DNA of 64,000 nt, from contig NZ_ML708624.1 in the NCBI RefSeq assembly GCF_008831305.1, positions 1 through 64,000 of the forward strand, in the 5' to 3' direction. This document shows positions 2,893 through 33,883 of the stretch, piece after piece. A program made the translations under genes and the position numbers. This DNA comes from Kocuria coralli. Its GTDB lineage: Bacteria; Actinomycetota; Actinomycetes; Actinomycetales; Micrococcaceae. The notes beneath the pieces were generated by a model. It ran no database searches. It was given only the letters and a program-made list of their open reading frames with translations, and was not told the origin of the DNA. The number at the start of each line of letters is the position of its first letter. The first letter of the stretch is position 1.

Positions 2893-3605
2893 CGTGCTTC
2901 CCCGCTCGTCTCACGAGAGGTCTCGGGGGTCGTCTCGGGGGGCCGCCCAGGGCCGCGGAACGCCGCTAGCCTGGCGGCGTACTTGGCCATGACGTCCGCC
3001 TCGAGGTTCACGGGGTCCCCCTCGGTCTTGGCGCCCAGGCCCGTGGCTGCCAGCGTGGCGGGGATCAGGCCGATCTCGAACCACGGCTCGGTGGCGCCCG
3101 CGGCGCTGACTGCCGTGACGGTCAGCGAGATGCCGTCGACGGCGATGGCCCCCTTCTCCGCCAGAAGCGGCGCCAGGTCATGGGGAATCCCCACCCTCAC
3201 GGTCTGCCATGCTCCGTGCGGGATACGGGACAGGATGCGCCCCGTCCCGTCCACGTGTCCCTGGACGATATGGCCGTCCAGCCTGCCGTCGGCGGGCAGG
3301 CAGCGTTCCAGGTTGACCACTGCCCCGGGCCGCAGGCTCCCCAGGGTGGTGCGTCTCAGGGTCTCCCCCATGACGTCGGCGGTCAGTACCTCCGTTCCGC
3401 CGCCCTCCGGGCTGGTCCCGCCCTGCGCGGGAGCCGGAGCGGAGGTGAGGCAGACGCCGTCGACGGCCAAGGATCCGCCGGGAGGCAGATCGGTGACGAT
3501 GGGGCCTGCCTGGATGCGCAGGCGCGCCGAACCGTCCTCCTCTCCGCTGGGGTCGCGCTCGAGGGAGATGACCGTGCCCGTCGCGGCGACGATACCGGTG
3601 AACAT
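2889..3605 (-). CDS. ribE: Riboflavin synthase (alpha subunit)
   Basis: Dismutates two lumazine molecules into riboflavin and the pyrimidine that RibH recycles. The 238 residues start with the invariant MFTGIV and contain two homologous lumazine-binding barrels, the second beginning around LDGHIVQGHVDGTG. It is longer than the usual 200-215 residues because of a Gly/Pro/Ala-rich insert in the first barrel (PAQGGTSPEGGG) and a Pro/Thr/Glu-rich C-terminal tail (PPETTPETSRETSG). It overlaps ribBA by 4 bases and follows ribD after an 11-base gap containing AGGAG. The same gene is called ribC or ribE in different species. Confidence 0.95.
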   Translation of the reverse strand: MFTGIVAATGTVISLERDPSGEEDGSARLRIQAGPIVTDLPPGGSLAVDGVCLTSAPAPAQGGTSPEGGGTEVLTADVMGETLRRTTLGSLRPGAVVNLERCLPADGRLDGHIVQGHVDGTGRILSRIPHGAWQTVRVGIPHDLAPLLAEKGAIAVDGISLTVTAVSAAGATEPWFEIGLIPATLAATGLGAKTEGDPVNLEADVMAKYAARLAAFRGPGRPPETTPETSRETSGEAR

Positions 3606-11030: not shown

Positions 11031-11611
11031 CTTTCGACCTGGAAACCATAGCGCACCACGAGCCTGCTCGCCAATTCGGCCGCGCCGGCCCCGGATCTGC
11101 CACCCCTGAGTGGGCACACGACGCACAGGTGCGCCATCCATTCCCTCCTGGTTCCCCACGGCCAGCACCCGCGATGCGCGCCCCACCCGGCAGAACTCCT
11201 CGAGTGGCCCAAGAGAGTGCGTTCACGCCCCTGCGCGCCTCAAGCGACCTCCTGGAGTGCGCTCCACGCCTCAGACGCACACCACAGGACCACTCGATCG
11301 CTGAGGGAACACGGCGGGGCCGTTCGAGAAGGGAGCGTCGCGCTCTGGAGCCGCACCCGAGGGACTGTCCAAGGGACTGCGCCCGCGGGATCGGGCGGAT
11401 CCCCACGGGCCCCGCGGCTCGATTTGCGCGGCGCGATTCAGGTGGCCTAATGTCTACGCCTGTCGGAACGGCGAGCAGCCCGAAGGACGCAGAGCGACAG
11501 TCCTGCGGAGCGCGGCTGCACGCACTGTCCGCAGCCGAGGCACCGGGCGAGAGCACGGAAAAGGCTGTGATACAGTTTCCGATCGAACGTCAGCCGAAAG
11601 GCAGATGGTTC
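11031..11611. other. 581-base stretch without a recognisable gene
   Basis: This stretch lies between divergent tRNA genes. Short open frames up to about 77 codons exist in several frames, but none shows a convincing Shine-Dalgarno or known family. It should hold the promoters of tRNA-Val(CAC) (minus) and of the Gly-Cys-Val tRNA group (plus). A TTGCGC followed 17 bases later by CTAATG (about 11428-11456) is one promoter-like arrangement. No strong hairpin is seen. Confidence 0.5.
11571..11576 (+). promoter_or_regulatory. Candidate -10 box for the tRNA-Gly/Cys/Val genes
   Basis: TACAGT, preceded by TGTGA, fits the actinobacterial TAnnnT -10 consensus and lies 35 bases before tRNA-Gly. The -35 region is unremarkable. 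Confidence 0.35.
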
Positions 11612-11684
11612 GCGGTTGTAGCTCAGCTGGTAGAGCATCACCTTGCCATGGTGAGGGTCGCGGGTTCGACTCCCGTCAACCGCT
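11612..11684 (+). tRNA. tRNA-Gly (anticodon GCC)
   Basis: A 73-base cloverleaf: acceptor GCGGTTG/CAACCGC with discriminator T, D arm GCTC/GAGC, anticodon stem TCACC/GGTGA with loop TTGCCAT, and T loop TTCGACT. The anticodon GCC reads GGC and GGU. CCA is not encoded. First of three tRNA genes on the plus strand. Confidence 0.96.
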
Positions 11685-11750
11685 CGGAGAGCATCATCTT
11701 CGGATGCATGCGATCAATGAGAAGGCCAGGTCCGCAAGGACACAGGTCCC

Positions 11751-11821
11751 GGTGGGGTGGCCGAGTGGTTAGGCAGCGGCCTGCAAAGCCGTCTACGCGG
11801 GTTCGAATCCCGTCTCCACCT
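11751..11821 (+). tRNA. tRNA-Cys (anticodon GCA)
   Basis: A 71-base cloverleaf: acceptor GGTGGGG/CTCCACC with one G-T pair and discriminator T, anticodon loop CTGCAAA, T arm CGGG-TTCGAAT-CCCG. The anticodon GCA reads UGC and UGU. It lies 66 bases after tRNA-Gly and 35 bases before tRNA-Val(GAC), so the three are probably co-transcribed. Confidence 0.95.
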
Positions 11822-11856
11822 CGGTTCCCACCCAGCTCGCTCCCCCGGGAGCATGA

Positions 11857-11931
11857 GCGCGATTGGCGCAGCGGTAGCGCGCTTCCCTGACACGGAAGAG
11901 GTCACTGGTTCGATCCCAGTATCGCGCACCA
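11857..11931 (+). tRNA. tRNA-Val (anticodon GAC)
   Basis: Acceptor GCGCGAT/ATCGCGC, anticodon stem CTTCC/GGAAG with loop CTGACAC, T arm ACTGG-TTCGATC-CCAGT. The anticodon GAC reads GUC and GUU. Unlike its neighbours it encodes CCA (11929-11931). It differs from tRNA-Val(CAC) mainly in the anticodon arm. A terminator follows 5 bases later. Confidence 0.96.
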
Positions 11932-11936
11932 GCACA

Positions 11937-11970
11937 GAAGGCCCCGACTGAAGCTTCAGTCGGGGCCTTC
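11937..11970 (+). terminator. Terminator of the tRNA-Gly/Cys/Val unit
   Basis: A 34-base perfect palindrome, 17 bases per arm, centred on AAGCTT. In RNA it would fold with a short tetraloop. It lies right after the CCA of tRNA-Val(GAC). Confidence 0.8.
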
Positions 11971-11986
11971 GTCGTACCCCCACACC

Positions 11987-12052
11987 CCCGCCGAGTGGAT
12001 ACCTAGTTGCGCCAAGGGGCCCGACAGCGCAACTAGGTATCCACTCGGCGGG
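11987..12052. repeat. Perfect 26-bp inverted repeat with 14-base loop
   Basis: The arm 11987-12012 (CCCGCCGAGTGGATACCTAG then TTGCGC) is exactly repeated in inverted orientation at 12027-12052, with a 14-base spacer. It follows a complete terminator by 16 bases and serves no adjacent gene end, so it is not needed as a second terminator. The central GGATACCTAGTT is less GC-rich than its surroundings. It resembles a repetitive palindromic element or a miniature mobile element; I cannot see other copies in the window. Confidence 0.85.
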
Positions 12053-12149
12053 AGGGGGCGACGCGCCCGGGGACTTCCGATGTTGCGACATGGACCGCGG
12101 GCAGTGGATAGTGGTCTCGTCAGATGACATCGAACGAGAGGAGACCATC

Positions 12150-12320
12150 ATGGTGGATCTCGGAGGAATGGCAGACAAGGCCAAGCAGGCAGCTTCGGAC
12201 AACCCCGAGGCCGTCGACAAGGCTGCTGACACGGCCAACGACAAGACCGGCGGCCAGTACGAGGATCAGATCAACTCCGCCAAGGACAACCTCACTGGCG
12301 GCGGCGACGACGAGAACTGA
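12150..12320 (+). CDS. MT0933-type small antitoxin homologue
   Basis: A 56-residue, highly charged, Ala/Lys/Asp-rich protein: VDLGGMADKAKQAASDNPEAV..., then VDKAADTANDKTGGQYEDQI and a Gly/Asp tail. The DKAAD...DKTGG...DQI pattern matches short actinobacterial proteins annotated as Rv0909/MT0933-type antitoxins. ATG 12150 is chosen because GAGAGGAG at 12136-12143 precedes it; an upstream ATG at 12090 lacks one. No toxin gene is next to it: the neighbours are a tRNA group and convergent zapE. It may therefore be an orphan antitoxin or a stress protein misnamed by family annotation. Confidence 0.7.
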   Translation: MVDLGGMADKAKQAASDNPEAVDKAADTANDKTGGQYEDQINSAKDNLTGGGDDEN

Positions 12321-12368
12321 TCCCCGGATCAGCGCTCGGCCGGCCCGAGAGGGTCGGCCCTCGTGCGC

Positions 12369-12403
12369 CTGAGGGGCGGCACCATCACGGTGCCGCCCCT
12401 CAG
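12369..12403. terminator. Bidirectional terminator between the antitoxin-like gene and zapE
   Basis: A perfect 15-bp stem (12369-12383 with 12389-12403) and an ATCAC loop lie between two convergent genes, 49 bases after one stop and 77 bases from the other. Confidence 0.8.
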
Positions 12404-12479
12404 TGCTTCCCGGCCGACTCGACCTGGCGCAGTGCCGGAGATCGCCGCAGCCGACGACGTCGGCCGGTCCCTCAGCCGC

Positions 12480-13556
12480 TCACAGCAACGGCTGCGCGGG
12501 CATCTGCCCCTCGCGAGCCAGAGCCGTCAGGCGCGAGACGGCGCGCGAGTACTTCTTCTGATAGCCGCCGGCCATCATCTCCGGGGTGAAGATCTGATCG
12601 AACGGCACCCCCGAGCTGATGATCGGCAGGTCGCGGTCGTAGAGGCGATCGGCCATCACCACCAGACGCAGAGCCAGAGCCTGCTCGTCCACCGTGCGCA
12701 CACCGCGCCACACGATGCCGTCGAGCCCCTGGACCATGGCCCGGTAGCGCGAGGGGTGCACGCGGATCAGGTGCTCCAGGATGTCCTCGAAGTCATCGGC
12801 GGACACGACCTGGTCGTCGCCGAAGCGCTCGTCCGCGGCGGCCTCGAGCTGATCGTCGGCCAACGGGGCAGGCGCCTCCGGCAGGCCGCGGTGGCGGTAG
12901 TCCTCGCCGTCGATGCGCAGGACCTCGAACTGGTCGGAGAGCACCTGGATCTCGCGCTGGAAGTCCTGTGCTGCGAACCGGCCCTCCCCCAGGGATCCGG
13001 GCAGCGTGTTGGAGGTCGCAGCCAGGCGCACGCCCGCATCCGCCAGCTCGCGCATCAGCCGCGACATCAGCACGGTGTCGCCGGGATCGTCGAGCTCGAA
13101 CTCGTCGATGCACACCAGCGCATAGCCGCTGAGCGCCTCGACCGTCTTGCGGAAAGTCAGCGCACCGACCAGGTTGGTGTACTCCACGAAGGTGCCGAAG
13201 GACTTGGGCCCCGGTGAGGCGTGCCAGAGGGACGCCAGGAGGTGGGTCTTGCCCACACCGAACCCGCCGTCGAGGTAGATCCCCTGCTTGGAGCCCTTGT
13301 CTCCCCCGCCGTTCGAGCCCCCGAACATCCGGGAGAAGAACCCTCCGCCCTTGGAGCCGCTCCCGGGACCGGAGATGCTGCGGGCGAACCGCTGCAGTTC
13401 CTCGACGGCCTGAGCCTGCGAGGGCTGGGACGGGTCCGGACGGTAGGTGCCGAAGGAGACCTCGCCGAAACGTTCCGAGGGACGGAACCCGTCCAGCAGC
13501 TGCTCCGCGGATACAGCGGGACGACGTTCCACGAGGCGCTCGATCTGCGGACTCAC
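12480..13556 (-). CDS. zapE: Cell division protein ZapE (AFG1-like AAA+ ATPase)
   Basis: AAA+ ATPase of the ZapE/AFG1 family, described in E. coli as a Z-ring-associated ATPase active late in division; the role in actinobacteria is little studied. The 358 residues contain Walker [10 protein letters not shown] at 97-105 and Walker B VCIDEFEL at 148-155, followed by the family motif MSRLMREL. Typical features include YRHR and the C-terminal YSRAVSRL. A Gly/Ser-rich insert at about 62-90 ([11 protein letters not shown]...) just before the P-loop is longer than in proteobacterial homologues. It is divergent from the sulfurtransferase gene. Confidence 0.88.
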
Positions 13557-33829: not shown

Positions 33830-33883
33830 GAGATGCGAGTCGGGCCGCCCATCAGTACTGATGGGCGGCCCGACTCGCATCTC
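33830..33883. terminator. 54-base perfect palindrome between DUF3093 and DUF4193
   Basis: 27 bases per arm with no spacer (centre CAGTACTG). It lies 21 bases after the DUF3093 stop and 15 bases before the DUF4193 stop, as a shared terminator for two convergent genes. Confidence 0.8.

Follow-up and report, generated by a model that had tools for sequence, protein, structure and literature searches.

A perfect palindrome after a tRNA unit of Kocuria coralli is probably an orphan copy of a nuclease-linked palindromic repeat

The perfect inverted repeat that follows the tRNA-Gly/Cys/Val genes in the window (the whole stretch of 64,000 nucleotides that we analysed) is, in our judgement, rather probably a solo, orphaned copy of a palindromic repeat linked to a nuclease, one that is REP/RAYT-like but goes with an unrelated enzyme. 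By comparing sequences within the genus we could show a dispersed family of 60/61-bp elements that sit after stop codons, fall into subfamilies by their arms, form mostly matched pairs around one type of gene, and for the most part have cognates beside that gene in their own genome. The family suggests a mobile repeat of an undescribed kind. Its autonomous unit would be a ~60-bp palindrome, ~70-170 bp of DNA, a gene of ~325 aa, ~0-45 bp and a matching palindrome. We refer to the genome that contains the window as G000 (3.43 Mb in 70 contigs) and to the same-genus genome that carries most of the close copies as G009. The features of the window are as follows.

11612..11931, + strand: tRNA-Gly, tRNA-Cys and tRNA-Val genes, upstream of the element
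11937..11970, + strand: ordinary terminator-like hairpin of the tRNA unit (span of its arms), 16 bases upstream of the element
11987..12052, no strand: palindromic element with 26-bp arms and a 14-nt centre; a solo copy of the G009-type subfamily
11990..12049, no strand: 60-bp tip-to-tip unit GCCGAGT...ACTCGGC, of a length common to the superfamily
11993..12000, + strand: conserved half-site GAGTGGAT, mirror copy at 12039-12046; columns 7-14 in the alignment of 34 elements
12007..12012, + strand: conserved half-site TTGCGC, mirror copy at 12027-12032; columns 21-26 in the same 34 elements
12013..12026, no strand: central spacer, the most variable stretch of the family
33830..33883, no strand: second palindrome, perfect, 54 bp, between convergent ORFs and 20 and 14 nt from their ends

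The inverted repeat is confirmed as real and far beyond chance. Its arms (11987-12012 and 12027-12052, 26 nt each and 14 nt apart) are 100% complementary, just as an earlier reading of the sequence alone had described them, and its RNA fold comes to -66.5 kcal/mol, where shuffled sequences give -33.6 +/- 3.6 (z = -9.2). A 17-mer core of the arm occurs twice in the window, once in each arm, where 0.03 occurrences are expected from shuffles. The full hairpin that was said to end the tRNA unit 16 bases earlier is also there, with its arms at 11937-11970. When we scanned window positions 11500-12500 with Rfam, the element fell below every threshold and the tRNAs alone passed the gathering threshold. 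The arms of the second palindrome (33830-33883) have a similarity of 0.85 to a subfamily A element of G000, and this is probably another solo element with different tips.

In G000 the arm core matches only the window arms when up to two mismatches are allowed. With up to three, it matches both arms and one 3-mismatch site, and since the reversed control also gives 3 matches we regard the third one as being at chance level. An exact-arm scan of genome contigs returned 3 single matches in contigs of MAGs (2 archaeal and 1 actinobacterial), which we took as chance. The picture in G009 is different. Across 27 same-genus genomes, the arm core with up to 2 mismatches gave 33 matches in G009, one 2-mismatch match in G017 and the window's own two arms. 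The multiple copies that the sequence-only reading would have counted as support for a repeat family are missing from its own genome but present in a relative. A degenerate pattern of the palindrome found 34 copies in G009, which bears out the suggestion of a dispersed palindromic repeat family, as well as 1 copy in G000 and none in the other 25 genus genomes, with 0 everywhere for the reversed control. Among 395 genomes of the taxonomic family the same pattern was positive in only 2, again G000 and G009. A covariance model recovered 36 loci in G009 and 7 in G000, namely the window copy and 6 more distant ones that have the tips (GTCGAGT in one case) and the length of the superfamily but other inner arms. 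It also recovered 2 loci in G010 and 1 in G022, all less similar to the family than the G000 ones.

We aligned the 33 paired G009 elements that were read first with the window copy, and in all of them the best pairing was at an offset of 37 nt in a search that allowed 30-45 nt; one G009 locus had an additional, weaker pairing at offset 42. The half-sites GAGTGGAT and TTGCGC are almost invariant across these 34 elements. The six bases that separate the two half-sites vary, and so does the centre, mostly without covariation. Such a pattern resembles recognition by a protein more than pairing within an RNA. G009 also carries a copy at the same tRNA locus as the window, and both copies are of the GGAT/TTGCGC type. 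G010 has no element at the orthologous tRNA locus and so provides the empty site in a relative that had been proposed as a check. A single occurrence in the genome together with conservation at the same spot in all relatives had been named as the outcome that would speak against a mobile repeat; the arm does occur once in its genome, but G009 alone shares it at this locus. A small ORF follows the window element at 12150-12320, presumably CsbD-like, and in G009 it likewise lies 3' of the tRNA unit. G009 has 2-4 divergent copies 3' of the 5S gene in each of three rRNA operons (L040, L041 and L044).

The G009-type elements belong to a superfamily of palindromes that is abundant in 5 of the 27 same-genus genomes. 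The tips GCCGAGT-n-ACTCGGC gave 20 raw matches in G000, 24 in G009, 17 in G017, 23 in G020 and 32 in G022, including a few chance ones; in each of the remaining 22 genomes the tips gave 0-5 matches and the reversed control 0-3. From the five rich genomes we collected 127 elements, admitting lengths of 59-63 bp and applying mismatch limits; this set holds 28 elements from G009, compared with the 36 covariance-model loci there. Nearly all are 61 bp (65 elements) or 60 bp (60 elements) long, 125 of 127 together. In six subfamilies the mean diversity was 0.00-0.12 over the outer 24+24 positions and 0.35-0.55 over the central 8-9, and the arm values are somewhat lowered because five of the six were chosen by a short arm motif. 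At several orthologous positions different species have an element, each with the arms of its own species.

We then come to the gene. Among 217 ORFs that flank elements, the two largest homology groups were a protein of 321-357 aa (6 proteins from 4 genomes) and an MFS transporter, the latter coming mostly from the lpd-MFS locus. The linked protein had no NCBIfam match above cut-off in the members scanned, its Pfam matches were all sub-threshold (chiefly AbiEi, MTES_1575 and DUF559), and its sequence matches in the PDB were weak. A profile search gave 87 homologue matches in 25 of the 27 genomes (8 in G000, 4 in G009, 5 in G017, 9 in G020, 11 in G022 and 0-6 elsewhere), and the window contains no homologue. 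We examined 50 of the 87 loci, 30 chosen by the tool and 20 by us, all of the latter from the five element-rich genomes. The 6 seed loci (alignment A2) are circular for this purpose and were excluded. Among the 44 non-seed homologues that are left, palindromes within 400 bp lie on both flanks of 16 and on a single flank of 10, whereas 18, mostly distant homologues, lack any. Control genes had palindromes on both sides in 0 of 84 cases and on one side in 7 of 84 (Fisher test, 4e-9 for both sides at 16/44 vs 0/84 and 1e-9 for at least one side at 26/44 vs 7/84).

The flanking palindromes are often entirely unlike GCCGAGT in sequence. Even so, most pairs match within their locus. Mean arm identity in a pair is 0.82 over 21 pairs and 0.80 over the 16 non-seed ones, compared with 0.475 for palindromes of different loci; 3 of the 16 (L255, L284 and L288) do not match, at 0.41-0.53. 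The 5' palindrome usually lies ~70-170 bp before the gene, counted to the HMM start, and the 3' palindrome ~0-45 bp after it. Protein identity and arm identity are correlated over 21 loci (Mantel r=0.37, p=0.0002), in a set from which pairs with similarity <=0.6 were dropped and in which the seeds and three one-sided loci were kept. The lpd-MFS locus has one palindrome in G000 and G020 and two around an extra gene of ~330 codons in G017 and G022, with stop-to-stop distances of 104, 179, 1262 and 1303 nt in G000, G020, G017 and G022. Two genomes thus show the solo state and two the full unit at one orthologous place, which might reflect either gain or loss of the gene. Among plasmid records, homologues turned up only outside the genus, two of them, both from Arthrobacter, one annotated as 'hypothetical protein' and one unannotated. 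Each lies between two palindromes that resemble each other (identity 0.81 and 0.79), although one of these palindromes passes only when 4 mismatches are allowed. A plasmid search with another protein, that of L197, was negative. In G020, identical 60-bp palindromes at L278:1357-1416 and 2482-2541 surround an uninterrupted homologue, possibly a recent unit. At L183 (G000) and L197 (G020) the bracketed homologues are 46% identical and both neighbours 92-93%, a contrast that could come from fast evolution or from replacement inside the unit.

To see which element goes with which gene, we scored all 127 elements against the full set of homologue-flanking palindromes. At an arm identity of at least 0.75, a limit chosen afterwards, 110 of the 127 (flanking copies themselves included) match a homologue-flanking palindrome in their own genome. 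In G000, 12 elements go with L252, 9 with L276 and 1 with L282; in G009 all 28 go with L279; in G017, 8 go with L275, 5 with L251 and 1 with L289; in G020, 19 go with L253, and in G022, 27 with L250. The own-genome match was at least as good as any match in another genome for 111 of 127. The 17 elements without an own-genome cognate (1 in G000, 5 of 19 in G017, 4 in G020 and 7 of 34 in G022) are counted on the 50 of 87 homologue loci examined, and several of them match a homologue-flanking palindrome of another genome. The subfamily A gene of G000 (L252) showed a palindrome on its 5' side alone, and the 3' palindrome of L279 was found by the covariance model and missed by the stricter palindrome scan.

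The window copy is the sole cognate-less element of the 23 collected in G000. Its arms are 0.92 identical to the palindrome that flanks the G009 unit and at most 0.52 identical to any palindrome beside the G000 homologues, 7 of 8 of which have a palindrome in reach (L283 has none). Since the gene with the window's arm type is found in G009 and beside none of the 8 G000 homologues, the copy would be an orphan, either a relic after loss of its unit or acquired with the neighbouring DNA. The tRNA block before the element is 95.2% identical between G000 and G009, and each is 88% identical to G010. The DNA 3' of the element gives 85, 84 and 85% in the same three comparisons. This pattern is compatible with a local exchange and does not prove one, and it is possible that a G009-like donor supplied the window copy along with the tRNA block. 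A recent insertion by the genome's own enzyme is not supported, since the arm type has a single copy in that genome. Taken as a whole, the interpretation in the sequence-only reading is partly supported.

We modelled the structure of the linked protein using 26 homologues (pLDDT 93.7). Residues 219-329 align with the I-Bth0305I catalytic domain (3r3p) at Z 11.3 over 95 of 97 residues with an rmsd of 2.7, and with Vsr (1cw0) at Z 9.7, although three mitoribosomal chains match the nuclease part equally well as Vsr (Z 9.2-10.5). Nucleases of this class are called EDxHD. All 26 homologues keep the putative catalytic residues E222, D254 and H271. Residues 4-214 align with S. agalactiae AbiEi (6y8q) at Z 10.3 over 180 residues with an rmsd of 5.8, and with Rv2827c (1zel) at Z 8.1. 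Foldseek gave no match at E <= 0.001. From its modelled structure, the protein is a predicted fusion of an AbiEi antitoxin with a homing-endonuclease domain of the Vsr/I-Bth0305I type. A transposase encoded elsewhere had been proposed for the window element; a partner enzyme encoded elsewhere does seem likely, but it would be this predicted fusion, and a Y1 transposase is found in 0 of the 27 genomes.

Likeness to homing endonuclease genes comes from the modelled nuclease domain, its fold and its invariant E, D and H; homing itself is a proposal. The known Vsr/I-Bth0305I endonucleases differ in that ours is fused to AbiEi, is flanked by complete palindromes and is accompanied by many solo intergenic ones, and the linked protein was confirmed in no phage record or viral contig. 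Compared with AbiE type IV toxin-antitoxin systems, the N-terminal ~214 residues of the model are alike (Z 10.3 and 8.1 to AbiEi and Rv2827c), but the stretch between the palindromes has room for one gene only, a nuclease domain is added, and the palindromes also occur solo. According to PMC7319586, the promoters of AbiEi and Rv2827c contain 23-bp inverted repeats to which these proteins bind. By analogy with these relatives, recognition of the arms by the N-terminal part is a natural proposal.

That DNA binding is also what favours a different explanation, in which the palindromes are operator sites. An AbiEi-like regulator or nucleoid protein would then bind the flanking palindromes for autoregulation and the solo ones as a regulon or for architecture, and the nuclease fold would not be used for movement. 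The 5' palindrome, mostly 70-170 bp before the HMM start, and the correlation of protein and arm similarity both agree with this. However, solo sites are mostly 3' of genes, with just 12 of 127 between divergent ORFs, and an operator does not call for a second matching palindrome at the 3' end of the gene or for putative catalytic residues that stay invariant in all 26 homologues. We think that this explanation is unlikely.

The position of the elements bears on another alternative, that they are host 3'-end elements (bidirectional terminators or 3'-end stabilisers) kept alike by selection or gene conversion and having no mobility of their own. Of the 127 elements, 57 lie between convergent ORFs, 51 between codirectional and 12 between divergent ones, and 7 are at the edges of stretches. 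The ORFs come from a GC3-based caller that is blind to RNA genes, which is why the window copy was scored as divergent although it is 3' of tRNA genes. The nearest facing stop codon is at a median of 17 nt (n=108) and within 50 nt in 92 of 108, and the hairpins are strong (median -48.3 kcal/mol). When we compared six 3' ends of one G009 cluster with G010, we found that ldh, lctP, helicase and selO bear other hairpins in G010, and that the comparison was ambiguous at lpd and at the acetyltransferase gene; the selO hairpin of G010 starts GCCGAGCGGGC and may be an old element. The copies after the 5S gene in the three G009 rRNA operons examined also fit a host function, and arm conservation could come from such a function instead of from copying. 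Some element pairs enclose other genes, which counts against the mobile unit.

Like intrinsic terminators, the elements put a hairpin just 3' of stop codons. Unlike them, they have a fixed length of 60/61 bp, an arm sequence that is common to many loci, and no U tract: T makes up 0.117 and 0.128 of the next 10 nt on the two strands across the 127 elements. A terminator requires pairing and not identical letters across tens of loci, and a host 3'-end element leaves unexplained both the matched pairs around one gene family and the abundance in just 5 of 27 genomes. At the window locus a terminator-like hairpin already lies upstream. For these reasons we rejected a simple terminator, and we consider the host explanation in general improbable. 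Over the 127 elements, pyrimidines make up 73% of the 20 preceding bases and purines 74% of the 20 following ones; purine/pyrimidine tracts thus extend the mirror symmetry outward.

Alternatively, the element could be a REP or MITE that a conventional transposase has moved, either RAYT/IS200 or a DDE enzyme. Such a repeat would also be short, palindromic, intergenic and dispersed, with one gene family bracketed, and REPs do bracket RAYT genes (PMC2817692). We nevertheless find this very improbable. Y1_Tnp (PF01797) is present in 0 of the 27 genus genomes and in 5 of 14 control genomes, and the fold predicted for the linked gene is another one. None of the 127 elements has direct repeats of at least 5 nt near its ends (null mean 0.2), on which ground we rejected a DDE-type insertion with a target duplication of at least 5 nt. 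GTAG occurs within 8 nt of either end in 15 of 127 elements and at 12-20 nt away in 7, and CGTC in 4 and 13, so that CGTC is not enriched. The RAYT variant of this explanation is largely refuted, and we rejected RAYT/REP on the lack of PF01797.

There are real likenesses to REP/REPIN-RAYT systems (TnpA-REP, REPtrons). Both have short extragenic palindromes with solo copies and a pair around one enzyme gene, and in both the type of repeat goes with the type of enzyme. The differences are that the enzyme here is a predicted AbiEi plus Vsr/I-Bth0305I-like nuclease, with no Y1 transposase in 27 genomes, that the defining GTAG/CGTC foot is absent, and that the flanking pairs are not inverted but, judged by the loop, direct in 13 of 18 and inverted in 5, several by a small margin. 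The elements are also 60/61 bp long, compared with 20-40 bp for REPs according to PMC3733652.

That the window element acts as RNA, as a structured small RNA or attenuator, was one suggestion of the sequence-only reading and is hardly credible: the fold is very stable, but the element is below the Rfam thresholds (the ground on which we rejected an RNA family), the inner arm positions in G009 mostly lack covariation and show little pairing signal, and convergent ORFs surround 57 of the 127 copies. Phage origin was rejected as well. The exact palindrome pattern matched 0 viral contigs and a looser half-site pattern 9, while the protein was found in 0 phage records, and 27 viral stretches that matched its peptide patterns gave none that was confirmed. 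Single genes between two elements, together with breaks of synteny at elements, prompted the idea of integron-like gene cassettes. We retained it only in part, because some bracketed genes recur at orthologous places and are not simply accessory cassettes.

We return to the orphan site of a nuclease-linked repeat, which we prefer. The AbiEi part would bind the palindrome arms and the nuclease would cut at or near palindromes. Repair of the break could then copy the palindrome, or palindrome, gene and palindrome together, into other palindromes and 3'-end hairpins, and such copying would convert arms to the resident type. Recombination between the flanking copies could leave a solo site behind. 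The window copy can probably still serve as a 3'-end hairpin. A bolder version, which we offer tentatively and would not put at quite even strength, is that these are a new class of selfish element: AbiEi-homing-nuclease fusions that recognise ~60-bp palindromes, spread their own gene and solo palindromes by break repair into gene-end hairpins, and overwrite the palindromes of rival families. If this is true, each genome gets its own arm dialect and ordinary transcription terminators become a network of homing sites.

To our knowledge, REP-like repeats with a cognate enzyme have so far been described with HUH (Y1) transposases. Here a REP-like architecture comes with a predicted antitoxin-homing-nuclease fusion, and the arm dialects follow the protein lineage. 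In the open-licence literature that we searched, no title or abstract start dealt with a link between palindromes and nucleases of the AbiEi or DUF559 type. Should the protein act on these palindromes, there is a testable route by which short palindromes could spread and stay alike with no transposase, a possible function is suggested for a protein family that Pfam and NCBIfam do not place, and the pairs of protein and site form a natural series that co-varies.

A few minor observations concern individual loci. In G020, two 61-bp elements (L213:1682-1742 and 3052-3112) in direct orientation differ by one letter, loops included, and the pair of genes that they enclose is not related to the nuclease. 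Other genes, too, may be moved or duplicated by elements. In G022, contigs C46, C218, C263 and C230 each have an element 82-229 nt from their start, as if elements or their units break assemblies. In the window, convergent ORFs are separated at 910-959 by a 50-bp palindrome, which may be either a terminator or an element in decay.
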